Shown: piece after piece, positions 6,823-21,130 of the stretch | Numbering within the stretch: position 1 is the first letter of the stretch | Layout: each line of letters opens with the position of its first letter | Source: a virus | Reading direction: 5' to 3' (one strand) | Virus record (IMG/VR): IMGVR_UViG_3300010883_000357 | Location: 1-26,753 of that record | DNA length: 26,753 bases | Notes under the pieces: model-generated | What the model was told of the DNA's origin: nothing | The model's input: only the letters and a program-made list of their open reading frames with translations | Database searches by the model: none | Translations under genes and position numbers: made by a program

Positions 6823-7674
6823 ATGACTCAATCTCCATTGAAGTTCTATGTAATTGCATACGCCAGCGGCCACAAAGGAAATCAATTAGCATATAACTTA
6901 ATTACAAAATTCCCTGAACAATTTGAAGTAAAATATTATAATGAAAGTGGGCATCAACGCGGAGATTGGGGGCATGATTTTTTAGAACATTATTTTTCAG
7001 ACATATATTGGACACATGAATCATTGCCTGTTGATAAAAATGTTTATTTTAGTAATGTATTATATCATATGTATGTTGATGAAATTATAAAAGATTTACG
7101 GAGACGGTTACAAGATAGTGACAGATACCCACATAATAATAGATGGAAGATAGTATTAACGCATGGTAGTTCTATTATACAATTACATGCAATACGTAAC
7201 CAAATATTAGATGGTCTTAGTGGTAGTTTACATCTTAATAGGGAACAATTAGGACATTGTGTACATATTACTCAAATAATGTGTGATGATTTACAACAAA
7301 ATGCTGAATATTTTCATAGGCATCATGAAAGTACTAATGGGTTTGGTGATTATTTTAATGATTTGCGAAGTTATGCTATTGGTGAAGGTGGTTATATGTT
7401 TTTTCGTGGACAAACCGATGCAACATTTGAAACGGATACAATTATAGAAACTAAAGATATTAATAATGAATCTTTTTATACTTTAGATAATTTATTTAAA
7501 TCACGTCCATATTTGACTACAGATATAGTAGAAGAATGGATTAAAAATATTACTATAGAAGAAGACCCGTGGATTTATACTAATATAGCATATAAATTAA
7601 ATGCGTTAGGATATCAAATTCCACCAGATAAAATTTATAAAAATAAAGTAGATTTACTTGCAATCTGCGGTTAA
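6823..7674 (+). CDS. P-loop-like protein of unknown function (family member A)
   Basis: 283 residues. Not recognised with certainty. The N-terminus LKFYVIAYASGHKGNQLAYNL looks like a beta strand, a glycine-rich turn and a helix, the layout of sulfotransferase-type P-loops, although the canonical GK[ST] is absent. The protein upstream of radical SAM 2 (16044-16790) begins in the same way (LKFIFVCYPHGAGGEFLSYI), which suggests one family. Further features are GHQRGDWGHDFL (residues about 43-54), WKIVLTHGSSI, HLNREQLGHCVHITQIM and several histidines near FHRHHES. It has a leaderless-type late promoter and is followed by the dNMP kinase 18 bases on. A sugar or sulfate transfer role is a guess. 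Its codons are more AT-rich than those of gp13. Confidence 0.55.
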   Translation: MTQSPLKFYVIAYASGHKGNQLAYNLITKFPEQFEVKYYNESGHQRGDWGHDFLEHYFSDIYWTHESLPVDKNVYFSNVLYHMYVDEIIKDLRRRLQDSDRYPHNNRWKIVLTHGSSIIQLHAIRNQILDGLSGSLHLNREQLGHCVHITQIMCDDLQQNAEYFHRHHESTNGFGDYFNDLRSYAIGEGGYMFFRGQTDATFETDTIIETKDINNESFYTLDNLFKSRPYLTTDIVEEWIKNITIEEDPWIYTNIAYKLNALGYQIPPDKIYKNKVDLLAICG

Positions 7675-7692: not shown

Positions 7693-8322
7693 ATGATTAT
7701 AGGACTTGTTGGATTAAAGGGTTGTGGTAAGGATACCGTAGCAGATTATTTTTTAGCACAACATAATAATTGGATTAAAGGCAGTTTTGCTGACTCCCTT
7801 AAAGATACCTGTGCTTGTGTTTTTGGTTGGAAACGAGAATTGTTAGAAGGCACTACTCACGAAAGTAGAGAATGGCGGGAGGAAGTAGATCCTTGGTGGG
7901 CAGATAGGTTAGATAAACCTGGTTTTACACCGCGTGTAGCCTTGCAACTTGTTGGCACGGACTTGTGGCGCAATCAATTTCATGATGATATTTGGTTATT
8001 AAGTTTTGAGAAAAAATTATTAGCCATTAAAGAAAATATTATTATAACTGATTGTAGATTTCCTAATGAGATAGCGTTGATTCAACGTTTAAAAGGTAAA
8101 ATTGTTAGAGTTAAACGTGGCGAAGATCCGCCATGGTGGGATACTGCTGTTGAAGATAATGATCGCCAAGATGAAGCACATTATAATCCAATGTTGCCAC
8201 GGACATATCCTGAAGTTCATGCTAGTGAATCTTCATGGGCAGGTTGCATTGAAGATCACGTAATTATTAATGATGGAACTTTAGAAGATTTAGAAGAAAC
8301 AGTTAAGAATCTGAATGTATAG
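7693..8322 (+). CDS. Deoxynucleoside monophosphate kinase (T4 gene 1 type)
   Basis: 209 residues. MIIGLVGLKGCGKDTVADYF places a P-loop at residues 7-15 (GLKGCGKDT), the form used by T4 gp1 and related dNMP kinases. Further family segments are FADSLKDTCACVFGW, ALQLVGTDLWRNQFHDDIW (about residues 84-102), IIITDCRFPNEI and the C-terminal VIINDGTLEDLEETVKN, which resembles the end of T4 gp1. The enzyme phosphorylates dNMPs to dNDPs for phage DNA synthesis. Length is close to the T4 protein (241). It is the one clear nucleotide-synthesis gene among late genes and has a sigma70-type promoter, in line with early expression. Its last 20 bases overlap the end of radical SAM 1 on the other strand. Confidence 0.88.
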   Translation: MIIGLVGLKGCGKDTVADYFLAQHNNWIKGSFADSLKDTCACVFGWKRELLEGTTHESREWREEVDPWWADRLDKPGFTPRVALQLVGTDLWRNQFHDDIWLLSFEKKLLAIKENIIITDCRFPNEIALIQRLKGKIVRVKRGEDPPWWDTAVEDNDRQDEAHYNPMLPRTYPEVHASESSWAGCIEDHVIINDGTLEDLEETVKNLNV

Positions 8323-9622
8323 CATCATAAACTACTGGAAAAAGTGCTGGATAGTTAGTACCACGCCGTCTATCTAATTCAGAAAGGTAGTTGTGTAGTT
8401 GTTTTTGTAATTCTTTATCAGGAGCACATGCTCTAATACTTTTAGCAATGCCTTCCCAATATTTTTTAGTGTTTATTAGAGTCTCTTCTCCAAATGTTTC
8501 TAATTTATTGGTAGCATCAGTATAACCCCAGTCAAGAATTTCTGCACCAAATATTGAAGGATGTATACAAGGTCGTCCACCTGCTTGCATCATTGAAACG
8601 TTTAATATCCTGAAAGTATCATTCAGTTTGTTTTCTTTAACAATTTGTTCTTGCCATGTGTTAATTTTATTAATAAGATCTTCCATTGTAAAAGTTGTTA
8701 ATGGCATCCAACACATATTAATACTGGGATTCATATCAGTATTATTAATAAAATAATTAAAATTATTCTCAAAATGTTCGAGATTTAAGCCAGATCTAAC
8801 ATATTCTGCTTCTTTGCCCCAGCAGTCTAAACTAGCAATAAGTTTATATTTTCCTAAATTGCCATTATCATGCAGAGCTTGTAATTTGTCTATTATTTTT
8901 TTTATTTTTTTTGGTTCTAATGAAAGATTGCTATTAATATTTAATTGTAATTCGGGACATTTTTTAGTAGATAAGAAATCTAACAATTCCAAAGTTTCAG
9001 GTTGTGTAAAAGGCTCCCCACCCAAAATATATAATTCTCTTAAATGTTGTACATTTTCATCAAGCCAAACAAATAATTTTTCTTTTACTTGTAAAACATT
9101 TCCTTTATAGTTGGATTTATAATTGGCTGGATCATTATCTGTTGCAAATCCATACAGATATTCATCTATATGTCCAAATTTCTTATTTTCAGCTTCCCAC
9201 GTAGTACTAAAATATTGTCCACAATACGTACAAGACATTTGGCAATTAGAACTAAAAAATAATTCTAATTCAGTAGGAGTAAGATTACTAGCTTGAGCAG
9301 GGTTGTCTTTTAATTCTTTTGCAGATTCTGGAGCATGTGGCATTGTAGAATGCATCATTCTGTCACTCATTCCATCAGCATCTTCTATAACTCTGCAATG
9401 CTCACAGCCATGTTCTGGCCATACATTATTAAGCATTTTATTTCTAGCAATTATTTTTTCTGGTGTATTATGGAAATCGAAGTTATCTGGTATTACATCT
9501 TGATTAACTCTATGGCAACTTGCAGTAGTATTTGTAGTTAAAAATATAGTGCTATGAGACCATTTAAGACGACATTGTAAATTTGACTGTAATGGATGCA
9601 TGAAGTTATTAATATGAGGCAT
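8303..9622 (-). CDS. Radical SAM protein 1, N-terminal twitch type
   Basis: 439 residues. The radical SAM cluster motif is CQMSCTYC (C127, C131, C134), followed by GGEP at 201-204, which contacts S-adenosylmethionine. Before the core are C17, C36 and a CEHC pair (C73, C76), which fits the N-terminal twitch class in which an auxiliary iron-sulfur cluster precedes the barrel; the set recurs in radical SAM 4. Other core signs are LNINSNLS and LIASLDCWGKEAEYVRSG, seen also as ELAASIDEIEERAEWVRYG in protein 4. The substrate is unknown; radical chemistry on a peptide or other polymer is possible. The gene has a leaderless-type late promoter, sits next to an HNH gene and converges with the dNMP kinase. 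Expression late in infection is inferred. Confidence 0.88.
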   Translation of the reverse strand: MPHINNFMHPLQSNLQCRLKWSHSTIFLTTNTTASCHRVNQDVIPDNFDFHNTPEKIIARNKMLNNVWPEHGCEHCRVIEDADGMSDRMMHSTMPHAPESAKELKDNPAQASNLTPTELELFFSSNCQMSCTYCGQYFSTTWEAENKKFGHIDEYLYGFATDNDPANYKSNYKGNVLQVKEKLFVWLDENVQHLRELYILGGEPFTQPETLELLDFLSTKKCPELQLNINSNLSLEPKKIKKIIDKLQALHDNGNLGKYKLIASLDCWGKEAEYVRSGLNLEHFENNFNYFINNTDMNPSINMCWMPLTTFTMEDLINKINTWQEQIVKENKLNDTFRILNVSMMQAGGRPCIHPSIFGAEILDWGYTDATNKLETFGEETLINTKKYWEGIAKSIRACAPDKELQKQLHNYLSELDRRRGTNYPALFPVVYDAIHSDS

Positions 9623-9627
9623 AACAT

Positions 9628-9635
9628 TATTTATT
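9628..9635 (-). promoter_or_regulatory. Late promoter box AATAAATA, leaderless radical SAM 1
   Basis: Minus-strand AATAAATA at 9635-9628; the ATG starts at 9622, six bases on, preceded by T. It lies in the 18-base gap between the HNH stop and the radical SAM ATG. Confidence 0.7.
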
Positions 9636-9640
9636 ATTCA

Positions 9641-9997
9641 TTAAAAATCTGGAATTAAATCTCCTTGTTTCCATCCCTTCCCTGCAATATATAAAATTCT
9701 ATGGCAGTTAGCACATACTGTTTTTAAGTTTTTCCAATCATTATTTTTTCTATTCCCATCTTGATGATATACATCTAGTTGTATAGAATGATCTGCTTTA
9801 AATCCACATCGCTGACATTGGGTTTTTTTAGTATATCCACTAGCCTTCCATTCAGAATGAGATGTTGTTTCTAGTTTTTTCTCTTGTCGTATACATTTAT
9901 CACACTGAGTTCTATAGTGTGGTATTTCTTTTTTATAATAATTTACTGCAACTGGGCGCATACCACAGCGACATAGTGGTCTTTTAGCATGTTTCAT
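9641..9997 (-). CDS. HNH endonuclease with zinc ribbons
   Basis: 118 residues from the ATG at 9997. An in-frame ATG two codons upstream (10003) is possible, but its A belongs to the late box and the 9997 ATG sits at the promoter +1. Zinc-type cysteine pairs are C9/C11, C32/C35, C61/C64 and C95/C98; the last two flank the HNH core LDVYHQDGNRKNNDWKNL (H78, N90) and CANCHR (H99). Small HNH proteins of this kind nick or cut DNA, acting as free-standing homing endonucleases or, next to terminase genes, in packaging. Here it is beside radical SAM 1 and divergent from gp18, so a homing role that helped carry the accessory gene is a fair inference, not shown. Confidence 0.85.
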   Translation of the reverse strand: MKHAKRPLCRCGMRPVAVNYYKKEIPHYRTQCDKCIRQEKKLETTSHSEWKASGYTKKTQCQRCGFKADHSIQLDVYHQDGNRKNNDWKNLKTVCANCHRILYIAGKGWKQGDLIPDF

Positions 9998-10002
9998 AAT
10001 CA

Positions 10003-10010
10003 TATTTATT
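10003..10010 (-). promoter_or_regulatory. Late promoter box AATAAATA, leaderless HNH
   Basis: Minus-strand AATAAATA at 10010-10003; six bases after its last A comes the second in-frame ATG (9997). The last A of the box is the A of the upstream ATG, so a transcript begun at 9997 would not contain that upstream ATG. Confidence 0.65.
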
Positions 10011-10071
10011 TCATGGAACCCTTTTCTGTACCCTTTGTGAGCGTGTATCGACGCGTATTTTACTAAATTGA

Positions 10072-10143
10072 AATAAATACTAGTATCAAATACATCGATA
10101 GATGTGTTAATTTTAATTAAAATTATACATAGAGGAAAATATT
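10072..10143 (+). promoter_or_regulatory. gp18 late promoter and structured 5' leader
   Basis: AATAAATA at 10072-10079 predicts a start near 10085 and a leader of about 59 bases, the longest here. The leader holds a 5-bp hairpin ACATC-GATA-GATGT (10092-10105), an 18-bp perfect palindrome TAATTTTAATTAAAATTA (10108-10125) and the ribosome binding site GAGGA (10132-10136) before the ATG at 10144. These could set mRNA stability or translation of the abundant sheath protein. The rest of the gap between the HNH and gp18 genes (10011-10071) shows nothing recognisable. Confidence 0.6.
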
Positions 10144-13100
10144 ATGGCTTTAGTATCTCCAGGTGTTGAAGTTACGGTAACGAATGAGTCAGCGTATGTT
10201 ACATCTGACCCAGGCACTGTGCCTTTAATCCTAGTTGCATCAGCACAGGATAAAACACAAGGTTCTGGTACAGGAACAGCGGCAGGAACAACCGCGGCAA
10301 ACGCTAACAAAGTTCAGTTAATGACTTCACAACGAGAATTAGCCACAACATACGGTACACCTACTTTTTATAAAAGTACATCAGGTACCATGTTACATGG
10401 CTACGAATTAAACGAGTATGGTTTGCAAGCCGCATATTCATACTTAGGTTTGGCCAACAGAGCATATGTATTACGAGCAAATGTAAATTTGAGTGAATTA
10501 GCAGGTTCTGCTTCAACTCCATCAGGCACACCAGTTACAGGAACACACTGGTTAGACCTTACAAATACAAAATGGGGCATTCATGAATGGAATGCAACTA
10601 CTCAAGCATTTACAAACAAGGTACCACAATTAGTAACATTAGCCACTCAACATAGTGGTGGTGTACCAGTTGCTTCGTTCGGCTCAATTGGCGATTTTGC
10701 TGTAGTTACAACAACAACAAGTAACGCAGTATATTATAAAAATAGAAGTAATACATGGAAGCTTACCGGCGACGGTACAGCAACAACAGCTGCACATTCA
10801 GGTGCAACTAAAGATGCTACATGGGCATCAAGCAGTCCAGCAGCTACTGGTACAGTATCAAGTCCACCAGCAATGGCATCAGGTGATGCTATTACTATTA
10901 ATGGAATAGCAATCAATTTATCAGCAGTTCCTAACGTTGCTGGTGTAGTTTCAGCAATCAACTCAGCAATGGATGGTAGTACAGTGGCTAAAAAAGGTGT
11001 TCAATCTGCTGTAGTTAACAATAAGATTGAACTTTATGTTATTGGTTCATCTGCAAGTAATGGTACAGTAGTGAATGGTGGTGTAGCTCTTGCTAATACC
11101 GCCGGCACTCCATTAGCAACATTAGGTTTATCAGTAGGAACCATATATGGTCCATCAACACAAACATCTTCATATACTACTGTTCCTTCATGGGAAACAG
11201 CCGCATCTACTTCACGTCCATCAGGTAGTGCATGGATGAAGTTAGATAAATCAGATAATGGTGCTGATGTGATTATTAAATCATATTCAGCAACAACAAA
11301 AGTATGGACAGCACAAACAGTTAATGTTTATGATACAATTGTTAAAGCAACGTCAGGTTTAGGTAGTACAGATCCAAGAACAATTGCAGTAGGTACATTG
11401 TTTGCTGATCATGATGTTAGTGAAGTAGAAGCATTAACATTGAAACCATATCGCCGTGCCAAAAGCACAGCAACAGTTATTGTTGGTTCTACAACCTCAC
11501 CAAGTTTTGTAAATGCTGAAACATTTACTATTGGTAGTACAACAGTAACACTGGGTGGTACAACTGCAACAGATTTTGTTGCCGCTATAGCAGCTGCCGG
11601 TATTACCGACGTATCAGCCACAGTGGAAACATCCGGTGCAGTAAGTATTTCACATGCTAAGGGTGGTGATTTAGTAATGCGTGATACCTCAGGTACACCA
11701 TTAGCAGATGGTGGTATTACTAATGCATTAACTAATGTTTATTCATTACCAAATGCTGATTTAATTGGTACAAACTGGGAAGAATTGACATATGAAGCAA
11801 AAGCAACAGAACCAACAACTAATCCAGGAAATGGTACTTATTGGTATGATACAACATTAGCAGCTGATATTATGATTCATGATGGTACAACTTGGAAAGG
11901 TTACGGATCAGTAAATCCTGATTTCCGTGGTTTTAACTTAGCTAATACAGATCCAGCAGGTCCACAGTTCGCCGCATCCGCACCATTAACACAATCCGAT
12001 AAAACGGCTCTTGTAAATGGTGATTTATGGATTGATACTTCAGATTTGGAAAATTTTCCAAAACTATATAGATATCAAACAGCAACATGGGTAGCAGTTG
12101 ATACTTCAGACCAAACATCAAGTAATGGTATTTTATTTGCCGATGCAAGGTGGCAAACTGAAGCAGCTGCTACAGTATCAGGTACTGGTGCAGGTACAGC
12201 AAGTAGTATTGTTAGTTTACTAACTGATCATTTCTTAGATCCAGATGCTCCAAATCCAGCAAGTTCACCACGTGGTATGTTATTATGGAATACACGCCGT
12301 AGTGGATATAGTGTTAAAAAGTATGCTAAAGATACTATTAACACAACAACATATGCCGCAGGAAACCCACGTTTTGGTTCACCAGCAGATTCAATTGCTG
12401 ATTATTTTCCAGATCGTTGGCAGAATGCCGCAGGTAATAAAACAAATGGTGCTATGTTTGCTGGTCGTAAAGCACAGCGTCAAGTCGTAGTTGCCGCAAT
12501 GAAGTCAGCAATTGATGCAAATACTGATATCCGAGAAGAGCAACGTCAGTTTAACTTACTTGCCGCTCCAGGTTATCCAGAGTTGATTTCTAACATGGCA
12601 ACACTTAATGTAGATAGAAAAGAAACAGCACATATTATTGCTGATTCTCCTCTACGTTTAGCAGCTAACGCCGCTAACTTGCAAACTTGGAGTAAAAACT
12701 CTAATTCTGCAACAGACAACGGTGAAGATGGTCTTGTAACCAATAATGCTTACATGAGTGTATATTATCCTTCAGGGTATTCAAGTGATCTAGCAGGTAA
12801 TGCAATTGTAGTACCAGCAAGTCACATGATTTTACGCACAATGGCTTATAACGATAGTGTTGGGTACCAATGGTTTGCCGCCGCAGGCACAAACCGTGGT
12901 AAAATTTCTAATGCTACTGCTATTGGTTATATTGATTCTGCTACTGCTGAATTCCAGAGTATTGCTGTACGTGAAGGACTACGTGATGTATTATATGCTG
13001 ATAGAATTAACCCAATTACCTTTATTAATGGTAGTGGTTTAATGAACTTCGGTAATAAATCCCGCGCTTCGACATCTTCTGCAATTGATAGAGTTAACGT

Positions 13101-13404
13101 TTCAAGGCTTGTTTCATACATGAGACGTCAATTGGATCTCATGGCAAAACCATTCATCTTTGAACCTAATGATGAACTTACACGTAATGAAATTAAAGGT
13201 GTAATTGAATCATTTTGTAATGAATTGATGGCGAAACGAGCACTTAATGATTACCTGGTTGTATGTGATGAATCTAACAACACGGCTGTAAGAATTGATC
13301 GTAATGAACTATACGTAGACGTAGCGATTGAGCCTGTGAAAGCGTTAGAGTTTATTTACATTCCAGTAAGACTTAAAAATACAGGTGAAATAGCAAAATT
13401 ATAA
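10144..13404 (+). CDS. gp18: Tail sheath protein gp18, enlarged
   Basis: 1086 residues, against 659 in T4. The N-terminus (VSPGVEVTVTNESAYV, then TVPLILVASAQDKTQG, YGTPTFY, LGLANRAYVLRANVNL) and the C-terminal third (AAPGYPELISNM, AYYPS-type and NDYLVVCDESNN, then LYVDVAIEPVKALEFIYIPV) are the conserved sheath domains. In between, about residues 125-670, are inserted elements: tryptophan hairpins (near 136-156, 363-388, 565-587, 628-652) and two copies of an ITING-type domain (about 248-335 and 458-530) that resembles the flagellin-hook IN motif. The sheath contracts to drive the tube into the host; insertions should lie on its outer surface. It has a late promoter and a long leader. Contraction motifs themselves cannot be mapped by eye. 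Confidence 0.92.
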   Translation: MALVSPGVEVTVTNESAYVTSDPGTVPLILVASAQDKTQGSGTGTAAGTTAANANKVQLMTSQRELATTYGTPTFYKSTSGTMLHGYELNEYGLQAAYSYLGLANRAYVLRANVNLSELAGSASTPSGTPVTGTHWLDLTNTKWGIHEWNATTQAFTNKVPQLVTLATQHSGGVPVASFGSIGDFAVVTTTTSNAVYYKNRSNTWKLTGDGTATTAAHSGATKDATWASSSPAATGTVSSPPAMASGDAITINGIAINLSAVPNVAGVVSAINSAMDGSTVAKKGVQSAVVNNKIELYVIGSSASNGTVVNGGVALANTAGTPLATLGLSVGTIYGPSTQTSSYTTVPSWETAASTSRPSGSAWMKLDKSDNGADVIIKSYSATTKVWTAQTVNVYDTIVKATSGLGSTDPRTIAVGTLFADHDVSEVEALTLKPYRRAKSTATVIVGSTTSPSFVNAETFTIGSTTVTLGGTTATDFVAAIAAAGITDVSATVETSGAVSISHAKGGDLVMRDTSGTPLADGGITNALTNVYSLPNADLIGTNWEELTYEAKATEPTTNPGNGTYWYDTTLAADIMIHDGTTWKGYGSVNPDFRGFNLANTDPAGPQFAASAPLTQSDKTALVNGDLWIDTSDLENFPKLYRYQTATWVAVDTSDQTSSNGILFADARWQTEAAATVSGTGAGTASSIVSLLTDHFLDPDAPNPASSPRGMLLWNTRRSGYSVKKYAKDTINTTTYAAGNPRFGSPADSIADYFPDRWQNAAGNKTNGAMFAGRKAQRQVVVAAMKSAIDANTDIREEQRQFNLLAAPGYPELISNMATLNVDRKETAHIIADSPLRLAANAANLQTWSKNSNSATDNGEDGLVTNNAYMSVYYPSGYSSDLAGNAIVVPASHMILRTMAYNDSVGYQWFAAAGTNRGKISNATAIGYIDSATAEFQSIAVREGLRDVLYADRINPITFINGSGLMNFGNKSRASTSSAIDRVNVSRLVSYMRRQLDLMAKPFIFEPNDELTRNEIKGVIESFCNELMAKRALNDYLVVCDESNNTAVRIDRNELYVDVAIEPVKALEFIYIPVRLKNTGEIAKL

Positions 13405-13421
13405 TATGCTATTATTATTAT

Positions 13422-13444
13422 TGGGGCGGTGTAAAACCGCCCCA
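13422..13444 (+). terminator. GC-rich hairpin between gp18 and gp19
   Basis: Stem TGGGGCGGT / ACCGCCCCA (9 bp) with loop GTAAA, eighteen bases after the gp18 stop. As at 890-916 there is no proper T tract after it (TGAATAAG), and a late promoter follows within eight bases. It may limit read-through from gp18 or stabilise the gp18 mRNA end. Confidence 0.65.
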
Positions 13445-13451
13445 TGAATAA

Positions 13452-13459
13452 GATAAATA
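13452..13459 (+). promoter_or_regulatory. Late promoter box GATAAATA with Shine-Dalgarno leader
   Basis: GATAAATA predicts a start near 13465 and a 17-base leader with AGGAG (13471-13475) before the gp19 ATG at 13482. The run AGGAGAATAA is identical to that before the gene at 950, and both follow a GC hairpin. Confidence 0.65.
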
Positions 13460-13481
13460 TTGATAACAATAGGAGAATAAT

Positions 13482-14090
13482 ATGTCCGTAGCGTCATTAA
13501 CAAAATTTACAGTACCAATTAGTGGTGCTGGATCAATGGGCACATTGATGCCGAAACTAAAATATCGCTTTAGAGCGATATTGGAAAACTTTGGCGTTAC
13601 CACCCCACGATCAGAGATTACAAAGAATGTAATGGATATTACACGACCAACCGCATCATTTGATAATCAAGTAATCGAAGTATACAACTCAAAGATTAAT
13701 GTATTGGGTAAACATACTTGGGAACCAGTTACAATTAACTTGCGTGACGATGTCAATGGTGAAATGACACGCAGAGTTGGTGAACAAATGCAGAAACAGT
13801 TCGATTTCTTTGAACAAATGAGTTCAGTATCTGGTATTGATTATAAATTTGTACTAAAGTATGAAGTACTAGATGGTGGTAATGGTGCAACTGCACCAAT
13901 AGTTTTAGAAACTTGGGAAATGTATGGTTGTTATATTGAAAGTGTAAACTACAATGATATGACTTATACTGATAGTGCACCAGCAACTATCACATTAACA
14001 ATTAGGTATGATAATGCACTTAATACACCACTAGGTCAAGGTGTAGGTGCTACAGTACCAAGAACAATAGGAGCAGTAGCCACTGGTTAA
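13482..14090 (+). CDS. gp19: Tail tube protein gp19
   Basis: 202 residues; T4 gp19 has 163. LMPKLKYRFRAILENFGV (about 22-39), DITRPTASFDNQVIEVYNS (52-70), GKHTWEPVTINLRDDVNGE (75-93) and the strand-rich end APATITLTIRYDNAL are the usual features of the tube protein, whose hexameric rings stack inside the sheath. It has its own late promoter and a strong ribosome binding site, as suits one of the most abundant tail proteins. The next gene follows after five bases and shares a related fold. The start is fixed by AGGAG seven bases ahead. Confidence 0.9.
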   Translation: MSVASLTKFTVPISGAGSMGTLMPKLKYRFRAILENFGVTTPRSEITKNVMDITRPTASFDNQVIEVYNSKINVLGKHTWEPVTINLRDDVNGEMTRRVGEQMQKQFDFFEQMSSVSGIDYKFVLKYEVLDGGNGATAPIVLETWEMYGCYIESVNYNDMTYTDSAPATITLTIRYDNALNTPLGQGVGATVPRTIGAVATG

Positions 14091-14095
14091 ACTAG

Positions 14096-15184
14096 ATGGC
14101 CTCCTTTTTAAGTAATTTCTTGCATGGTGTTGGACATGGAGATAGCATCAAAGATTACCGCCATGCAAGTAATCTCTTCACCCACGATAACTTTAGGCTC
14201 GCGCCTAAGTTTCGTTATCTTTATCACTGTAATATAAAATTAAATAGAGGAATAGCAGGTGCTCTATTAGATCAGGCTGAAATAAGTTTTATGGTTAAAA
14301 CTATAGAACTGCCTAGTATTACTTTTGAAGTAGAAACAAATAAACAATATAATAGAAAAGCATATAATCTTTTAGGTGTAGATTATGCACCTATTAGTAT
14401 TACTTTTCATGATGACAATCATAACAATGTTCGTAATTTTTTAGCACGTATATATCAACATTATGTAAATGATGGCACTAAAAATAATTATAGTGTGCGA
14501 TCTGGTGGTAAGCGACATACATATAATGAAAGAGCATCTGATTTGACATGGGGATTGGATTCTAGTTATGCTCAAAGCGGCGGTACAAATTTAATAGATG
14601 AAATACAGATAAATTCTCTATCAAAAGGAAATGCAACAGTATATACTTTAAAAAATCCAGTTATAGCATCATTCTCGCATGGTTCACATGATGTTTCTGA
14701 TGGTGCAGGCCCTATGGAAAGTACAATACAAGTACATTATGATGCAATTGTTTATGGTGATAATAAAGCAGGCTCAGTAGAGAATTTTGGTGGCTCATTT
14801 TATGATCGATCCGGAAGTGTACTATCTGGTGGTGCTCGAGGTGGAGGTGGTGGCTTGTTTTCTCCTGGTGGTATATTTGATAAAGCTACAGATGTTTTTG
14901 GTAATCTGCAGAGTGGAAATTTATTAAACGCGGCCGCCGGCGCATTCCAATTGCGTGAGCAACTTAGACACAATAGTACAAAAGATTTACTTAGAAATGA
15001 TATAAGTAACTCATTACCAGGAATTACTGATTTGATTTCTAGAAATCAAGGAAACTCATTCCCAACGGCTACTTTAAGACGGGCACAACAGTCTGTCCGT
15101 GAAGCAGCTGCTGAGGCCGATGTAGATTCTAGTGGTGGTGGTGCTTCTGGCGCTGGTGCCGGCGACGGATCAGGACCTTTCTAA
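14096..15184 (+). CDS. Second tail-tube-fold protein (gp19/gp54-like, possible tube initiator)
   Basis: 362 residues. MASFLSNFLHGVGHGDSIKDYRHAS and FRLAPKFRYLYHCNIKLN (about 34-51) lead into VKTIELPSITFEVETNKQYNR (67-87), then DYAPISITFHDDNHNNVRNF (95-114). This is a tube-type beta domain in the same register as gp19 (GVDYAPISITF here, WEPVTINLRDD there). In T4, gp54 is the tube initiator on the baseplate and has this fold; marine T4-like phages carry such a protein after gp19. The C-terminal third is glycine-rich and low-complexity (GGARGGGGGLFSPGG; GGGASGAGAGDGSGPF), perhaps a flexible tail. It overlaps the next gene in a TAATG junction. The gp54 assignment is probable rather than certain. 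Confidence 0.7.
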   Translation: MASFLSNFLHGVGHGDSIKDYRHASNLFTHDNFRLAPKFRYLYHCNIKLNRGIAGALLDQAEISFMVKTIELPSITFEVETNKQYNRKAYNLLGVDYAPISITFHDDNHNNVRNFLARIYQHYVNDGTKNNYSVRSGGKRHTYNERASDLTWGLDSSYAQSGGTNLIDEIQINSLSKGNATVYTLKNPVIASFSHGSHDVSDGAGPMESTIQVHYDAIVYGDNKAGSVENFGGSFYDRSGSVLSGGARGGGGGLFSPGGIFDKATDVFGNLQSGNLLNAAAGAFQLREQLRHNSTKDLLRNDISNSLPGITDLISRNQGNSFPTATLRRAQQSVREAAAEADVDSSGGGASGAGAGDGSGPF

Positions 15185-15591
15185 TGGCAGAATATACAAA
15201 TTTTGTAGAAAATACTAATTTTCCAGTTGATGATCAAGTATCTGATCAAATGTCTGCTGATGCAAAACAACGAAAGTTTTTTGATAATTATTATACAAAA
15301 GTAGGATCAGTAGACCCAGCACAGTTTGATATTGTGCGAGGTTTTTTATTAAGTAAAGGCTTAGATGAAGCTTCAATTGATAATTTAACAATATCATTAT
15401 TGGAAGTGTCGAAAGAACAAGGATTAAATCCAGTTGATTTAGTAAAACAATTGGATGATGTGAAAGATAAACTAAAACTTAATACATTACTATGTATTTT
15501 GTTAAACACGACAAGAAATCGTACAAGTATATTAGGATATTCAGAAGCTAAATTAGTTAGTACAAATATTCAACGAGCAATATTGGCTTAA
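15184..15591 (+). CDS. Conserved small virion-region protein, unknown function
   Basis: 135 residues. I know the pattern from the same position in marine T4-like phages but not its function. The N-terminus (TNFVENTNFPVDDQVSDQM) is polar; KQRKFFDNYYTKVGSVDPAQF opens a helical domain with FLLSKGLDEASIDNLTISLLE and QGLNPVDLVKQLDDV; the C-terminus NTLLCILLNTTRNRTSILGYS is strongly conserved in my memory of the family. Translation is coupled to the tube-fold protein by the TAATG overlap, and gp4 follows after 3 bases, so it belongs to the tail-tube/head-completion unit. A chaperone or minor virion part is possible; no catalytic motif is visible. Confidence 0.65.
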   Translation: MAEYTNFVENTNFPVDDQVSDQMSADAKQRKFFDNYYTKVGSVDPAQFDIVRGFLLSKGLDEASIDNLTISLLEVSKEQGLNPVDLVKQLDDVKDKLKLNTLLCILLNTTRNRTSILGYSEAKLVSTNIQRAILA

Positions 15592-15594
15592 GTC

Positions 15595-16032
15595 ATGGCA
15601 AAATATGCCCAAGGTCGTTTTCTTCCTAAAAACACTAAAAAATATGTAGGAACAAAAAATCCAAAATATCGAAGTGGATGGGAATTTGCTTTTATGAAAT
15701 TTTGTGATAATCATCCTAGTATAACAGAATGGGCAAGTGAGGCAATTAGAATACCTTATAGAAATCCATTAACAGGTAAACAAACGCAATATGTTCCAGA
15801 TTTTCTTATTGTATATAATGATAGGACTGGCAAACGTATAGCAGAGTTAATAGAAATTAAACCCAAAAGCCAAACATTGGTTGAACATGCTGGTAAAAGT
15901 AAGTACAATCAAGCGCACGTAGCAATGAACCACGCAAAGTGGGAAGCTGCTAATAAATGGTGCCAACGTCAAGGTATAAAATTTAGAATAGTAACTGAAG
16001 ATGATATTTTTCATCAAGGTAAGAAACGTTAA
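15595..16032 (+). CDS. gp4: Head completion protein gp4, nuclease fold
   Basis: 145 residues, near T4 gp4 (150). KNPKYRSGWEFAFMKFCDNHP places E30, followed by EAIRIPYRNP and QYVPDFLIVY (D69), then ELIEIKPKSQ (E87 and K89). E...PD...ExK is the metal site of the restriction-endonuclease-like fold, as in TnsA-type enzymes. The C-terminus KWEAANKWCQRQGIKFRIVTEDD also matches. In T4, gp4 completes the filled head before tail joining, perhaps by trimming packaged DNA. It sits at the end of the gp18-gp19-tube unit and its end overlaps a degenerate late box for the next gene, at the left boundary of the accessory block. Confidence 0.88.
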   Translation: MAKYAQGRFLPKNTKKYVGTKNPKYRSGWEFAFMKFCDNHPSITEWASEAIRIPYRNPLTGKQTQYVPDFLIVYNDRTGKRIAELIEIKPKSQTLVEHAGKSKYNQAHVAMNHAKWEAANKWCQRQGIKFRIVTEDDIFHQGKKR

Positions 16033-16038
16033 TAAGTA
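16031..16038 (+). promoter_or_regulatory. Degenerate late box AATAAGTA, leaderless GTG start
   Basis: AATAAGTA differs from the box AATAAATA by one base. Six bases after its end comes GTG (16044), preceded by T, the same geometry as at six ATG starts in this window. This spacing is the main reason for accepting the GTG start. Confidence 0.5.
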
Positions 16039-16043
16039 TTAGT

Positions 16044-16790
16044 GTGTTCGTCTTACCTGAATTAAAGTTTATATTTGTATGTTATCCACACGGCGCTGGT
16101 GGGGAATTTCTGTCTTATATTATAAGTAAATCTGAACAATGTAATACATTAGACAGGCGCAAAATAGGTGATAGGTATAAAGTTGATGATATATTTAATC
16201 AAAACTTATTACGTATTGACTTTAAACCAGAAAGACTATATGATCATAAAGATGCTAGTACATTAGATAAAGACAAATATGTTGTGGTTCCTACGCATTA
16301 TAGAGAAGATGATATATGGAAATATTTTAAAAATTACAAATTTATTAATATAACATATCCTACTTCTAAAGAAGGACATAATCAAGTATTACGCAATATT
16401 AAGAATAAAGTTTGGGATCAACCACAACCAACACAATTAGAATTTTTTGGCATGTTGCTACAATTAACTACTAATAATGATAAATCATGGTATATTAATA
16501 CGCATTTTAATATGAATACGATAGATATTATACTTGCCTCACGTAAACAAGAATTAACAGATAGTAATAGAAAAAAGTTAATGAAAGATTGGGATAAAGC
16601 AGAATACAAATACCATTCTGTAACAGATAGAAATTTAAATATTAATTATGATGATTTAGATAAATGTCAACAACACATATTTTCACAGAGTGAAACACTG
16701 AGGAAAATAAGTAATTATTGTAGGATAATTTTACAAGATGAAATACACCAAGAGTTTCGAGTTAAAATAGAAAATGATAAGCAAATATGA
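16044..16790 (+). CDS. P-loop-like, possibly sulfotransferase-like protein (family member B)
   Basis: 248 residues from a GTG start. LKFIFVCYPHGAGGEFLSYI (residues 7-26) is a strand, glycine-rich loop and helix as in sulfotransferase-like P-loop proteins, and it matches the N-terminus of the protein at 6823-7674. The rest includes KYVVVPTHYREDDIW, the region YKFINITYPTSKEGHNQVL, which suits a second nucleotide-contacting strand, and a C-terminal helical part with many lysines. A sulfate or phosphate transfer role is only a guess; the 3'-phosphate-binding motif of true sulfotransferases is not clear. The gene overlaps radical SAM 2 by 17 bases, so the two are translated together and probably work together. 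The sequence is strikingly AT-rich. Confidence 0.6.
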   Translation: MFVLPELKFIFVCYPHGAGGEFLSYIISKSEQCNTLDRRKIGDRYKVDDIFNQNLLRIDFKPERLYDHKDASTLDKDKYVVVPTHYREDDIWKYFKNYKFINITYPTSKEGHNQVLRNIKNKVWDQPQPTQLEFFGMLLQLTTNNDKSWYINTHFNMNTIDIILASRKQELTDSNRKKLMKDWDKAEYKYHSVTDRNLNINYDDLDKCQQHIFSQSETLRKISNYCRIILQDEIHQEFRVKIENDKQI

Positions 16791-17667
16791 TTTAAAATAT
16801 TTAGATGTAATGGTACAATATGCTTGTAGTTTGTCTTGCAAGGGTTGTATAACAATGTCTAATTATAATCGTAAAGGTCATGTTCCTTGGAGTGACGGTG
16901 AGCAATGGTTAAAAGAATGGAGTAAACGTTTTACTATACGAGAAGTTAATTTAATGGGTGGAGAGCCACTACTTAATAAAGATCTTAAAAATTGGATGTT
17001 TGGTGTTAGAGAAAACTTTCCTACCGCCAGAGTAAAACTTATTACAAATGGATTTCACTATCTTGTGCGCCCAGATTTATATAATTGGTGTAAAGAATTA
17101 GGCAATGTTTTAATACAAACTAGTTTACATTTTTATCCACCCCCGCAAGAATATATAGACAATGTTAAGTTTTTTCTACAACATTCTGATTGGAAAGTAA
17201 CTGCTACGCCGTTTCATCCATCTGATAAACTTATTAAGTTAAAAGACAGAAATGCTGACATAAAGTGGCATATGAACATGTTTGGTGAATTTAGACGTCC
17301 ATTTATGGGAGAAGGTCCTAAATTAATGCCTGCTGATAATGAAGATTATGTAGGTGCTCATAAAGTATGCGGTGGCCCAAATTCCCCTACATTATATAAA
17401 AATAAATTATATAAATGTCCTGCTGTTGCTAATTTAGATGATACATTAGCATTGTTTAATATACAAGATTCAGAAGCATGGCAACCATACCTTAATACAG
17501 GATTAAGTTATGATGATAATTTAGATAATTTTGTTAATAATATTAAAAAGCCAAACTCTGTAGTATGTAAGGCTTGTAGCAATAATCCAGATGAAATAGA
17601 ATATGATCATTATGGACAAGGAAGTGTTATAACACGTAAAGAATATAATGCAATATTTACTAACTAG
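16774..17667 (+). CDS. Radical SAM protein 2, C-terminal cysteine cluster
   Basis: 297 residues. CSLSCKGC (C18, C22, C25) near the N-terminus is the cluster motif, GGEP is at 62-65 and VKLITNGFHYLV (88-99) is a core strand. In the C-terminal half C199, C215 (LYKCPA) and C265/C268 (VCKAC) could hold an auxiliary cluster, as in short SPASM/twitch proteins. The order CGG...YKCP...CKAC is like that of marine-phage relatives. The start codon lies inside the preceding P-loop-like gene, and the stop lies inside the following SGNH-like gene (20-base overlap), so three proteins are coupled. Substrate unknown; the barrel seems short (full-length family members often exceed 330 residues). Confidence 0.88.
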   Translation: MISKYDLKYLDVMVQYACSLSCKGCITMSNYNRKGHVPWSDGEQWLKEWSKRFTIREVNLMGGEPLLNKDLKNWMFGVRENFPTARVKLITNGFHYLVRPDLYNWCKELGNVLIQTSLHFYPPPQEYIDNVKFFLQHSDWKVTATPFHPSDKLIKLKDRNADIKWHMNMFGEFRRPFMGEGPKLMPADNEDYVGAHKVCGGPNSPTLYKNKLYKCPAVANLDDTLALFNIQDSEAWQPYLNTGLSYDDNLDNFVNNIKKPNSVVCKACSNNPDEIEYDHYGQGSVITRKEYNAIFTN

Positions 17668-18442
17668 TGGTTGTGGTATAAGCCAACGAGAATTTAAGCA
17701 CTATCCAATTTGGGTACATTTCCCTAAACTTACACATAAATTAACACATTTGTCTATGGGAGGACCTGCTGTGGGTAATGAGTTTATAGGACGAGTGTGT
17801 AAAAAACATATATTAGAAAATTTAGATAAAGAGTTGGTAGTAATAATACAATGGACTAGTATAGGCAAATTGGATATGTTTGTTGAAGATATTGAAGTCC
17901 AACAACAAATAAAAACATTTAATTTGAGAAACTTTATTGTTGATATGAATGCTAATGTTGTAAATGATAGAGGATTTTGGGCAAGTAGTCATAGTGATGA
18001 CAATATAATCAAAGAATTATATATACAATCTAAAGTATATGATCATATGAGAGATTTAGAGCAAATATTAGATGTGCAAAATTTGTGTGAGTTACATAAT
18101 ATTCCTTATTATTTCTTTTATGGATATCCATTTGATTTTGAGTTTATAACAGAAACAGAAGAATTGGCTCATTTACGGAGCAATATTAAGTGGGATAAGT
18201 TTGTAATACATACGCCAATATATGATTTGTATAAAGATAGTAGTCATTATCAATATCGTATATTCCAAGATCCCAGATTTATGTCTCCAATGCCTTCATT
18301 TCATATAGAGTTTTATATTAAGTATATTACACCAATTTTAGATATGCATTTTACATCAATAAATTTTGATATAGAAAAATTAAAAGAATATTGTAGCGAA
18401 ATTACTAACGAAATATATTACAAGTATAACAATGTACATTAA
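17648..18442 (+). CDS. SGNH-hydrolase-like protein, nucleophile position altered
   Basis: 264 residues. YLLTSGCGISQREFKHYPIW at the start and MGGPAVGNEFIGRV (37-50) recall block I and the GN block of SGNH/GDSL proteins common in marine phages (usual form TSGCSxS... GxGNEfI). VVIIQWTSIGKLDMF and, near the C-terminus, PMPSFHIEFYIKYI would be the oxyanion and histidine blocks. The nucleophile serine of the usual GCS is glycine here (G10), so catalysis is doubtful unless another residue serves. Classic SGNH proteins deacylate lipids or sugars. Overlaps by 20 bases with radical SAM 2 and by 11 bases with radical SAM 3, so it is likely a partner or binding subunit of them. The assignment rests on motif pattern only. 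Confidence 0.5.
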   Translation: MQYLLTSGCGISQREFKHYPIWVHFPKLTHKLTHLSMGGPAVGNEFIGRVCKKHILENLDKELVVIIQWTSIGKLDMFVEDIEVQQQIKTFNLRNFIVDMNANVVNDRGFWASSHSDDNIIKELYIQSKVYDHMRDLEQILDVQNLCELHNIPYYFFYGYPFDFEFITETEELAHLRSNIKWDKFVIHTPIYDLYKDSSHYQYRIFQDPRFMSPMPSFHIEFYIKYITPILDMHFTSINFDIEKLKEYCSEITNEIYYKYNNVH

Positions 18443-19439
18443 TGCAGATAAAGTAAATTTATTACACGTTGAACCTACAACTAGATGCAATGCATCTTGT
18501 CCGGGGTGCCCGCGTAATAATAATGGGTTTGGGGTTCGAAAAGACTTAATACTTGATGATATTAAGCCAGATGTAGTAATTGAAACAGCAAGACAATTTC
18601 CTTATTTAAGAGTAGTGCATTTGTGTGGTAATTTAGGTGATCCCATAGCATACAAGCATTTAGATAGTTTAATAGATAAAATAATAATACAAAATGAATA
18701 TTTTTGGAATGAGTTTGATAGTGGACGATCAATAGAACCACAACATCATTGGCATGTTAATATACAGACAAATGGTAGTTTGCGATCGATAAAATGGTGG
18801 CAAGATTTGGGAAGAAAATGTGACAAGTATTTACTAAGATTACATAAAATAACTTTTGGTATAGATGGACTAGAAGATACGAATCATATATATAGGCAAG
18901 CGACTAATTTTAGTAAAATAATAGATAACGCAAAAGCATTTATAGATGCTGGTGGAAATGCATGGTGGCAATTTTTGGTATTTAAGCACAATGAACATCA
19001 AGTTGAAGAAGCAAGACAATTAGCAACCGATATAGGATTTAGTAATTTTTATACAAAAGAACCATGGTTTACTAAAGCATATCATTGGAAAACTGGTGAA
19101 AAATTTTATTTAGAGCCAGGCACTATGTTTATTAATGCAGATTTGCAACGTCCTAATGATATGTATGAGGAATCATTACTTGAGCCGGCGAGCATATTAA
19201 AAACAGATAATACGTATGTTAAAATAAAAAATTGTATGCATATAGATATTGATGGTGATGAAACAAATAATTATAGTATGTTTCAATCAGTTGATGGTAG
19301 TGTTATGCCATGTTGTCATTTTTCTAATAATTTTAGTTATAAAGAAAACTATGATATAAAAACATTAGATATTAACAAGGAATTTGAAAATAAAGATTAC
19401 CGATTAACATGTCGTGCAATATGCGGATCTATTAAATAG
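18432..19439 (+). CDS. Radical SAM protein 3, SPASM type
   Basis: 335 residues. LLHVEPTTRCNASCPGCPRN holds the cluster motif CNASCPGC (C19, C23, C26). The usual GGEP is replaced by LCGNLGDP (64-71), a form common in some SPASM proteins. HVNIQTNGSLRS and FGIDGLEDTNHIYR are core strands. The C-terminus carries C268, then DGSVMPCCHFS (C294, C295) and LTCRAIC (C327, C331): a SPASM-type auxiliary cluster set. SPASM enzymes usually modify peptides, so a peptide or protein substrate is likely but unproven. The start lies inside the SGNH-like gene, and the stop codon overlaps the late box of gp16. Its codons are very AT-rich. Confidence 0.88.
   Translation: MYINADKVNLLHVEPTTRCNASCPGCPRNNNGFGVRKDLILDDIKPDVVIETARQFPYLRVVHLCGNLGDPIAYKHLDSLIDKIIIQNEYFWNEFDSGRSIEPQHHWHVNIQTNGSLRSIKWWQDLGRKCDKYLLRLHKITFGIDGLEDTNHIYRQATNFSKIIDNAKAFIDAGGNAWWQFLVFKHNEHQVEEARQLATDIGFSNFYTKEPWFTKAYHWKTGEKFYLEPGTMFINADLQRPNDMYEESLLEPASILKTDNTYVKIKNCMHIDIDGDETNNYSMFQSVDGSVMPCCHFSNNFSYKENYDIKTLDINKEFENKDYRLTCRAICGSIK
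19431..19438 (+). promoter_or_regulatory. Late promoter box ATTAAATA, leaderless gp16
   Basis: ATTAAATA ends at 19438 and the ATG begins at 19444, six bases later, preceded by T. It overlaps the TAG stop of radical SAM 3. This spacing decides the start of gp16 against the GTG at 19414. Confidence 0.65.
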
Positions 19440-19443
19440 TATT

Positions 19444-19932
19444 ATGACAAAGAAATTAGAAGAATTATTTGATTTGGATGCCCCTGTTGACGAAGAGCAA
19501 CCAGACAGTAATATAGCAAAGACCGAAGCTAAAAAACTTAAAAAAGTTATGGCTGATGTAGACAAAATAGATAGTGCATTGCCGCTTGTGCGTGATTTAG
19601 AAGCAAATGACTTGGAAATGGATAATATTGCTACTAAAGCTGTAGATACATTTAATGACTTAATGGATTTAGGTATGAATGTAGAGGCACGATACGCAGG
19701 AAAAATATTTGAAGTTGCTGGCACTATGATGAAGAATGCTATAGATGCAAGAGCAGCTAAAATAGATAAAAAATTACGTATGGTCGAATTACAAATTAAA
19801 AAACAGCGAGTTGATCAACAAGAGCCTGTGGGTGAATCATATGATACTACTATTGATGGAGAAGCAACCATAGTAGCAGATCGCAACGAATTAATTAAAC
19901 AAATATTGAATCAAAATAATGACAAGAAATAA
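19444..19932 (+). CDS. gp16: Terminase small subunit gp16
   Basis: 162 residues, matching T4 gp16 (164). A longer reading from GTG 19414 was rejected since the ATG sits at the promoter +1 and the upstream codons lie in radical SAM 3. The centre is a long helix pair (DTFNDLMDLGMNVEARYAGKI and FEVAGTMMKNAIDARAAKID), then KLRMVELQIKKQR and the C-terminal EATIVADRNELIKQIL, which corresponds to the conserved end of marine gp16 proteins. gp16 is a ring protein that binds DNA and stimulates the gp17 packaging motor. Its stop overlaps the ATG of radical SAM 4 by 14 bases, and gp17 is 3 kb further on, an unusual separation. Confidence 0.8.
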   Translation: MTKKLEELFDLDAPVDEEQPDSNIAKTEAKKLKKVMADVDKIDSALPLVRDLEANDLEMDNIATKAVDTFNDLMDLGMNVEARYAGKIFEVAGTMMKNAIDARAAKIDKKLRMVELQIKKQRVDQQEPVGESYDTTIDGEATIVADRNELIKQILNQNNDKK

Positions 19933-21130
19933 TATTTGCATATTGCCGTGGGTATCGGTAGCAATAATGCCCGATGGTAATGTGTATCCTTGTTGTATGT
20001 CAATGCACGGCACAGCAATGGGAAATGTAAATGAATCTTCATTAGAAGAAATTTGGAATAGTGATGTATCGAGAGATATACGCAAAGACTTTCTTGCTGA
20101 TAAGCGTCTTGATATGTGTTCTGAGTGTTGGAAAGTAGAAGACAAAGGCAACTTTCATAGCACTCGTTTATGGGCCAATAAAAACTTTAAACATCATTTT
20201 AATTTATTAGAAAATACTAATGATGGTAGAGCAGATATGAATTTAATTTATACTGATATACGATTTTCTAATAAATGTAATCTTATGTGTTTTTACTGTG
20301 GTTCAATTTTTAGTAGTAAATGGGAAGCTTTTGATAAAAAAGTTCGTACAAAAATATCATCTATTCCTAAAATAAACAAACCTGAAAATTTATTAGATAG
20401 TTTAATAGATAACATTTCCAAAGTAGAGCAAATATATTTGTCTGGTGGTGAACCAAGTATAATGGAAGAAAGTTATACTATGCTTGAGGCAATAATTGAT
20501 ATGGGCCTATCTAAAAATATTAAACTATTATTGAATAGTAATATGTCTAATGTAACATACAGGGATAAAAACTTTTGGGATATGATATCAAAATTTAAAG
20601 AAGTAGAACTCGCCGCAAGTATTGATGAGATAGAAGAACGTGCAGAATGGGTACGTTATGGTGAAAAATGGAATAATATTATGGAAACTAATGACTATGT
20701 TAAGCGATATCCTAATATAAGAGTGCAATATTCACCAGTTGTATCTATGTTTAACTTCCATAGACTTCCAGAGATATTGACATATTGGCAGAATAAAGGA
20801 TGGATCACTAAAAATTACAGTAGTGTTTATTTGGCAGAGCCTGGATTTGACACTCGTTCAGATTTTAGATATTTGCCAACTAGTTGGAAATATAATATTA
20901 AAGAGATTATAGAAAATTTTCTTGAACAATCTCAAATGGATAGAAAAAATAGATTTATATATGATACTGCTAATAGTTTAGTGAAAGCAATGATAGATTT
21001 TAATGATGAAGTAGTAATTCTAAATAATATGAATCAAGTAATAGACGACATAAATCTACACGATAAATATAGGAAAGTAAAGTTTAGTGATGTATTTCCA
21101 GAACTAAATTTCTTAAAAACAACTAAATAA
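19919..21130 (+). CDS. Radical SAM protein 4, N-terminal twitch type
   Basis: 403 residues. The N-terminal part ICILPWVSVAIMPDGNVYPC has C7, C25/C26 and, later, MCSECW (C67, C70), the N-twitch arrangement also found in radical SAM 1. The core motif is CNLMCFYC (C120, C124, C127) with GGEP at 176-179. LAASIDEIEERAEWVRYG resembles the equivalent strand of protein 1. The C-terminal 150 residues are helix-rich and lack cysteines. The start is inside gp16 (14-base overlap) with no promoter of its own, so it is tied to the gp16 unit. In a PCC-type N-terminal domain the first cysteines probably bind an auxiliary cluster; the substrate is unknown. It is possibly a late virion- or host-modifying enzyme. 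Confidence 0.88.
   Translation: MTRNNICILPWVSVAIMPDGNVYPCCMSMHGTAMGNVNESSLEEIWNSDVSRDIRKDFLADKRLDMCSECWKVEDKGNFHSTRLWANKNFKHHFNLLENTNDGRADMNLIYTDIRFSNKCNLMCFYCGSIFSSKWEAFDKKVRTKISSIPKINKPENLLDSLIDNISKVEQIYLSGGEPSIMEESYTMLEAIIDMGLSKNIKLLLNSNMSNVTYRDKNFWDMISKFKEVELAASIDEIEERAEWVRYGEKWNNIMETNDYVKRYPNIRVQYSPVVSMFNFHRLPEILTYWQNKGWITKNYSSVYLAEPGFDTRSDFRYLPTSWKYNIKEIIENFLEQSQMDRKNRFIYDTANSLVKAMIDFNDEVVILNNMNQVIDDINLHDKYRKVKFSDVFPELNFLKTTK
21122..21129 (+). promoter_or_regulatory. Possible late box ACTAAATA
   Basis: ACTAAATA overlaps the end of radical SAM 4. It would start RNA near 21135, nine bases before the ATG at 21144. There is no ribosome binding site in between and the spacing differs from that of the leaderless group, so support is modest. 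Confidence 0.35.

Follow-up and report, generated by a model that had tools for sequence, protein, structure and literature searches.

The 26,753-base virus contig analysed here over its whole length (IMG/VR record IMGVR_UViG_3300010883_000357, hereafter the window) holds, in one block, the genes of a T4-like phage for tail, connector and packaging, among them sheath, tubes, gp4 (head closure), gp16, the large terminase (TerL) and virion proteins. Among these core genes lie four genes for radical S-adenosylmethionine (SAM) enzymes, here called RS1 to RS4 (Table 1). RS2 stands between a P-loop sulfotransferase-like gene (STb) and an SGNH-like gene, and the three form a conserved cassette, which is the real unit here. 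All four radical SAM genes are extra cargo of the phage and not assembly machinery.

The TerL encoded in the window shares 83-89% identity with one group of contigs and ∼54% with that of the cultured Pseudomonas phage PA5oct. All related sequences are metagenomic contigs, except PA5oct and Synechococcus phage S-SCSM2R. As the same virus is partly repeated across samples, contig counts overstate the number of independent lineages, and counts of distinct proteins are therefore given where possible.

Table 1. Features of the window and, in the last three rows, radical SAM gene clusters of large relatives (in the coordinates of those genomes).
Feature	Position	Strand	Evidence and remarks
STa, uncharacterised, possible P-loop-like N-terminus	6823..7674	+	insertion relative to PA5oct
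Deoxynucleoside monophosphate (dNMP) kinase	7693-8322		near RS1; PA5oct has one too
RS1, N-terminal-twitch radical SAM (NF033640), 439 aa	8303..9622	-	optional; antisense to the block, convergent with dNMP kinase
HNH endonuclease	9641-10003	-	beside RS1 at dNMP-kinase/sheath junction
gp4-like head-closure gene	15595..16032	+	phrog_218, 2.4e-44; left border of cassette
STb, P-loop sulfotransferase-like protein, 248 aa	16044..16790	+	cassette gene 1; GTG start
RS2, radical SAM, 297 aa, C-terminal auxiliary-cluster cysteines	16774..17667	+	cassette gene 2; PF04055, 3.2e-12
SGNH-like protein, 264 aa, SGCG instead of GDS	17648..18442	+	cassette gene 3; Foldseek
RS3, radical SAM, 335 aa, SPASM-like C-terminus, GNLGDP	18432..19439	+	after cassette; PF04055, 2.3e-11
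gp16-like small terminase	19444..19932	+	phrog_445, 0.0012; core gene breaking the radical SAM run
RS4, N-terminal-twitch radical SAM (NF033640), 403 aa	19919..21130	+	optional; between gp16 and next virion gene
Second cluster, G005 (L066)	143589-154770		6-8 radical SAM genes per cluster, conserved order
Second cluster, G003 (L083-L084)	159312-168959		as above
Second cluster, G011 (L088-L089)	19556-29707		as above

Integrity and family of the radical SAM genes

All four open reading frames are intact, and the Pfam profile PF04055 matched each of the products, three of them above its curated cut-off (3e-12, 4e-12 and 2e-11) and RS1 below it (6e-8). Despite this sub-threshold match, RS1 is confirmed as a radical SAM protein because it exceeds the curated cut-off of NF033640 (N_Twi_rSAM), scoring 200.9 bits against the 170 required. 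RS4 likewise belongs to this family (317.6 bits), whose name carries no function, whereas RS2 (31.6 bits) and RS3 (17.4 bits) fall outside it. The motifs are CQMSCTYC and GGEP in RS1, CSLSCKGC and GGEP in RS2, CNASCPGC and GNLGDP in RS3, and CNLMCFYC and GGEP in RS4. The twitch cysteines C7, C26, C67 and C70 are invariant among 21 aligned members of the RS4/RS1 family; in RS2 and its homologues (17 aligned), CxxxCxxC, GGEP, C215, C265 and C268 are invariant and C199 nearly so; and the auxiliary-cluster cysteines C294, C295, C327 and C331 of RS3 are conserved in its alignment.

Many other contigs carry close relatives, including one that is 100% identical over the part covered. Compared with orthologues in relatives, all four radical SAM genes are under purifying selection, with a ratio of nonsynonymous to synonymous substitution rates (dN/dS) of 0.09-0.37; for the three cassette genes it is ∼0.1-0.2 (∼0.1 for RS2), near the value for TerL. 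RS3 evolves faster, being 46-71% identical to its counterparts in other lineages, whereas the SGNH-like protein and RS2 remain ∼90% identical in the near clade. Searches of cultured phages with tblastn found no RS1, STb or SGNH-like gene.

An earlier note on this DNA, made from the letters alone, had described four different radical SAM enzymes in the virion block, three with GGEP and one with GNLGDP, two sharing an N-terminal twitch, one with a SPASM-type end (RS3) and one with a C-terminal cysteine cluster (RS2). The analyses above bear out this description, and its coordinates are correct, with the addition that RS1 lies on the minus strand, which the note did not state. Most of the gene overlaps that it reported are also real: STb overlaps RS2 by 17 nt, RS2 the SGNH-like gene by 20 nt, the SGNH-like gene RS3 by 11 nt, and gp16 RS4 by 14 nt. 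RS3 and gp16, on the other hand, would overlap only with a gp16 start at GTG 19414; alignment to the PA5oct homologue begins at ATG 19444, and with that start the two genes are 4 nt apart. The placement of the genes inside late transcription units is not supported. The T4 late-promoter octamer TATAAATA has a single copy in the window, antisense, at 1430, against 6.2 expected, and none in the radical SAM block, and RS1 runs antisense to the block; late-promoter-driven expression of the block was accordingly rejected. As a separate observation, the depletion of TATAAATA may mean that the octamer is avoided in this phage.

Cargo among core genes

To gauge presence across relatives, TerL was used as an unbiased probe, which kept the choice of sample independent of the radical SAM genes. 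In 12 of 12 close relatives spanning gp4 to TerL, the STb-RS2-SGNH-like cassette and RS3 lie between gp4 and gp16 (the next core gene serving as right border where gp16 was not recognised). The outgroup, with terminases ∼59-65% identical, has gp4 directly beside gp16 in 38/38 contigs and the cassette in 0/38. PA5oct has the same core gene order with nothing annotated at the cassette, RS1 or RS4 positions; its protein directly after head closure is 42% identical to the gp16-like protein, and several of its core proteins have been detected in virions by mass spectrometry. Because the next lineage and PA5oct keep the structural genes without the cassette, its position in the virion block is best described as a cargo insertion, and the earlier proposal that the four enzymes act during assembly is not sustained.

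The same observation bears on the idea that the enzymes modify a virion protein, such as a tail fibre, tube or capsid protein, during assembly. Such a role would fit the overlapping reading frames and the location amid genes for head, tail and packaging, as well as the larger radical SAM cluster of the relatives just downstream of tail-fibre-like genes. However, the core virion genes persist without the cassette in all of the outgroup contigs and in PA5oct, and the cassette has a second landing site. Here it lies between gp4 and gp16; in other T4-like contigs the same cassette lies between gp47 and gp46 (338 and ∼590 aa), putative recombination genes named by sequence inspection only. We therefore regard modification of a virion protein as unlikely.

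Presence across relatives is uneven in a way that separates the four enzymes, and RS1 and RS4 are optional N-terminal-twitch enzymes. RS1 occupies the dNMP-kinase/HNH junction in 6 of 20 contigs that span it and has orthologues at a different locus in the large relatives G005 and G011. The HNH endonuclease, which PA5oct lacks, is retained in relatives without RS1. RS4 is found in 10 of 19 gp4-to-TerL spans from contigs selected by RS2, and an N-terminal-twitch enzyme lies between gp4 and TerL in 6/12 of the TerL-selected close relatives. RS3 usually follows the cassette and is sometimes duplicated. A fixed four-enzyme system was thus rejected, since RS1 (6/20 at its site) and RS4 (10/19) contrast with RS2 and RS3 (19/19 each in RS2-selected contigs), although the 19/19 counts for RS2, STb and the SGNH-like gene in this sample are circular for RS2 and not evidence of presence.

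Linkage of the cassette genes

The evidence for a unit lies in the linkage of its members. Each of the 32 distinct SGNH-like proteins on the fetched contigs is encoded directly downstream of RS2 and in the same orientation. Of the 27 distinct STb proteins, 26 are encoded no more than two genes away from RS2, and the other one is at a contig end. A search with STb only recovered no RS2-free contig among those with flanking sequence. The suggestion that the P-loop and SGNH-like genes are partners of RS2 is thereby upheld, and the idea of a linked enzymatic system survives for the cassette around RS2, but not for the four enzymes acting as one set. Presence across relatives, which the earlier note had named as a check on a joint system, is uneven for RS1 and RS4 and not for RS2.

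Such linkage also bears on whether these genes, unrelated to each other, simply landed in an insertion hotspot without taking part in a common pathway. RS1 and RS4 vary independently in their presence, and the interval before TerL is variable in the outgroup phages too, both of which would be expected of a hotspot. STb, RS2 and the SGNH-like gene stay associated at both landing sites, which argues the other way, and we consider it improbable that the genes merely share a location.

The triad was seen in cellular genomes only on L099, a contig of the Pacearchaeota metagenome-assembled genome ARS103 (genome G025), which matches the viral contig L042. Genome G025 has nineteen NF033640 matches. 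By its sequence, L099 is probably misbinned phage DNA, and the archaeal assembly probably contains phage contigs.

The two partner proteins

STb was modelled with AlphaFold2 at a predicted local distance difference test (pLDDT) score of 86. The most coherent group of Foldseek matches were weak ones to sulfotransferases (SULT7A1, probability 0.72), and uncharacterised phage proteins were also matched (E 9e-7); its sequence profile returned only meaningless matches in the PDB. On these weak fold matches, STb is tentatively called a sulfotransferase-like P-loop protein. Residues Y14, G17, G19, G20, E21 and H85 are invariant, and the segments YPHGAGGEFLS and VPTH resemble the SULT motifs YPKSGTTWL and KTH; STb lacks the usual arginine after the strand that follows.

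The weak viral fold matches of STb also include 5-hydroxymethyldeoxyuridine DNA kinases and uridine kinases, which, together with the dNMP kinase near RS1, could suggest that the phage hypermodifies its DNA, STb serving as a P-loop base kinase and RS2 as the enzyme that rearranges the base adduct. A thymidylate-synthase-type gene (PF00303), the family to which dUMP hydroxymethylase belongs, was absent from nine of ten relatives, including the contigs of 322, 235 and 202 kb, although contigs may be incomplete. The near-complete absence of this required synthase family from the relatives tested makes thymidine hypermodification less likely, and the dNMP kinase also occurs in PA5oct, which has no cassette. 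We judge this explanation very unlikely.

The predicted structure of the third cassette protein (pLDDT 78, with loops 10-18 and 90-116 poorly predicted) has an SGNH fold by Foldseek; its top matches were GDSL/SGNH esterases with probabilities of 0.97-0.99, at template modelling scores of only ∼0.4 and E 0.005-0.02, and a sequence search of the PDB gave nothing meaningful. It thus resembles SGNH/GDSL esterases and acetyltransferases (PDB 1Z8H, 1DEO, 7TJB) in predicted fold but differs from them in having GCG for GDS and no visible DxxH motif. SGCG replaces GDS in 31 of 32 distinct copies, and the DxxH block was seen in none of the 32. As neither the GDS serine nor the C-terminal DxxH is present, we refer to the protein as SGNH-like and not as a hydrolase. 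True GDSF-type SGNH proteins occur elsewhere in the relatives.

Possible substrates

The neighbours of RS2 relatives offer clues to the substrate. The cultured phage S-SCSM2R (PQ898602) encodes an RS2 relative (profile E 1.5e-47) among several annotated glycosyltransferases, an aminotransferase-type gene and an inosamine amidinotransferase. This is again a phage-borne RS2-class gene, here in a biosynthetic operon, but its product is 23% identical to RS2, and neither partner gene, STb or SGNH-like, occurs within the 12.7 kb examined. In eight contigs (L043-L049, L052), a StrB1-type amidinotransferase gene lies just upstream of the RS2 relative, and the product of the one in L044 is closest to inosamine-phosphate amidinotransferase (PDB 1BWD, E 9e-91). 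In L041, the sequence suggested a further amidinotransferase upstream of RS2; this was not confirmed, and the gene was not used. More distant amidinotransferase homologues were seen in G003, G005 and G011.

Furthermore, the N-terminal 70 residues of RS4 match the twitch domain of BtrN (PDB 4M7T, E 1.2e-5), a 2-deoxy-scyllo-inosamine dehydrogenase. The twitch is C-terminal in BtrN (residues 186-258) but N-terminal in RS4, and the radical SAM cores were not matched in a single-sequence search. Because of the S-SCSM2R operon, the amidinotransferase-linked RS2 relatives and the BtrN-like twitch of RS4, a sugar or cyclitol is proposed as substrate, and we favour this chemistry over virion-protein modification as what the RS2 neighbourhoods suggest.

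The best PDB match of RS2 by profile was 7WZV (E 2e-15), and its profile also touches YydG, SkfB and other peptide-modifying enzymes. Several different radical SAM enzymes are known to occur together in systems for ribosomally synthesised and post-translationally modified peptides (RiPPs), and both points would suit a RiPP-like maturation in which RS2 and RS3 modify a small phage- or host-made peptide. Yet the matches to peptide enzymes cover mainly the shared radical SAM core, and no precursor-recognition family was matched in the profile searches. The tight packing of the region also makes peptide maturation less likely: the intergenic gaps within 15595-21130 are 13 nt or less and could not hold a precursor gene, although one may lie elsewhere. 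Overall, we find a peptide substrate quite improbable.

Our preferred explanation is that the cassette tailors a surface sugar or cyclitol. The phage, from a T4-like marine lineage with relatives of up to 322 kb, would carry metabolic cargo inserted at the junctions of core head, tail and packaging genes, with STb-RS2-SGNH-like, usually then RS3, as the functional unit. With a SAM-derived radical and the help of a second iron-sulphur cluster, RS2 would remodel a building block, either a sugar or an aminocyclitol, for example by epimerising, deoxygenating or dehydrogenating it. The sulfotransferase-like and SGNH-like partners may then add, remove or bind a decoration, and the product could decorate a glycan on the surface of the infected cell or on the phage. 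RS1 and RS4 would represent a separately expanded family with related chemistry on other substrates.

Several findings weigh against this explanation. Peptide, lipid and cofactor enzymes are among the best sequence matches of RS2; the window contains no gene with an established role in making or transferring a sugar; the STb assignment is weak, with no PDB fold match at E < 0.001; and the SGNH-like protein lacks the usual catalytic motif. No adenosine-5'-phosphosulfate (APS) kinase was found in ten relatives, which rejects phage-supplied 3'-phosphoadenosine-5'-phosphosulfate (PAPS) by that route, and sulfation would therefore need host PAPS. In addition, the S-SCSM2R and amidinotransferase-linked relatives share only ∼23-29% identity with RS2 and have no SGNH-like partner. 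The substrate class may for this reason not transfer to RS2, and we hold the chances of a surface sugar or cyclitol, with the reaction and product location outlined above, to be evenly balanced.

Radical SAM expansion in relatives

The large relatives hold far more of these genes, with 19 PF04055 matches in a contig of 322,647 bases, 13 in one of 235,363 and 14 in one of 201,690. Eight N-terminal-twitch groups correspond one-to-one across these three. Most of their radical SAM genes lie in a second cluster (Table 1), just after tail-fibre-like genes and in the surroundings of a NodU-type carbamoyltransferase, a glutamine synthetase-like gene, an Fe-S assembly protein, GDSF-type SGNH proteins and a sulfotransferase-like gene. 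The carbamoyltransferase, SGNH and sulfotransferase-like neighbours are a further argument for sugar or cyclitol chemistry. A PHROGs search on the neighbours of this larger island returned almost nothing. One relative has a PF01883 Fe-S assembly gene (PaaD/MIP18-type) within its radical SAM cluster, and an A-type Fe-S carrier was found in only two of ten relatives. In three genomes, the radical SAM genes were more clustered than the mean of random shuffles, though not more than every one of them. Judged from sequence, the expansion appears to be wider than the lineage of the window. Dense runs of RS3- and N-terminal-twitch-type genes were also noticed on the environmental phage contigs L377-L380, L390, L391, L408 and L416.

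Such an abundance has precedents. Nishimura et al. (2017; PMC5332604) reported T4-like marine phages with many radical SAM genes plus Fe-S helper genes, including TARA_ERS488813_N000010 (183 kb), with 12 radical SAM genes and Fe-S helper genes such as PaaD. The accessible part of that paper counts the radical SAM genes and ties them to Fe-S metabolism, but does not describe the cassette, its landing sites or its linkage. Pelagimyophages, described in 2020, likewise carry radical SAM genes as variable cassettes in T4-like phages, in the host-recognition cluster alongside glycosyltransferases; this is a different site, and no cassette of the same make-up is described in the accessible part of the report (PMC7029224).

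Other features of the window

STa, for which Pfam and NCBIfam profiles gave no match, is missing between Ad2 and the dNMP kinase of PA5oct. At 950-1699, after a tail-fibre-like open reading frame, lies a gene for a sialyltransferase-like or glycosyltransferase-like protein (phrog_30607; weakly phrog_4603), whose family has several paralogues in G003, G005 and G011. The contig ends (26576-26753) in a 48-nt tandem repeat coding for VQHDDSGVQDTTMASG-type protein repeats, which is likely an assembly break.

Significance

The cassette is apparently undescribed, as no account of it was found in the open-access literature, although radical-SAM-rich T4-like phages were reported in 2017. It is conceivable, if somewhat less than an even prospect, that the STb, RS2 and SGNH-like genes make up a mobile phage system not described before, in which a radical SAM enzyme and an obligate SGNH-fold partner without hydrolase residues carry out a new modification of a glycan or small molecule, in lineages whose complement of up to 19 radical SAM genes is unusually dense for a virus. 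What had been a vague occurrence of radical SAM genes in phage thus becomes a defined unit of one radical enzyme and two linked partners, which is under selection like that on packaging genes and recurs at different junctions between core genes. The absence of the catalytic motif from the SGNH-like fold suggests either unusual chemistry or a role in substrate binding, and the RS2 and SGNH-like pair is small enough for expression and assay. Since iron is scarce in marine waters and radical SAM enzymes need iron-sulphur clusters, a phage that keeps so many of these genes must gain much from their products.

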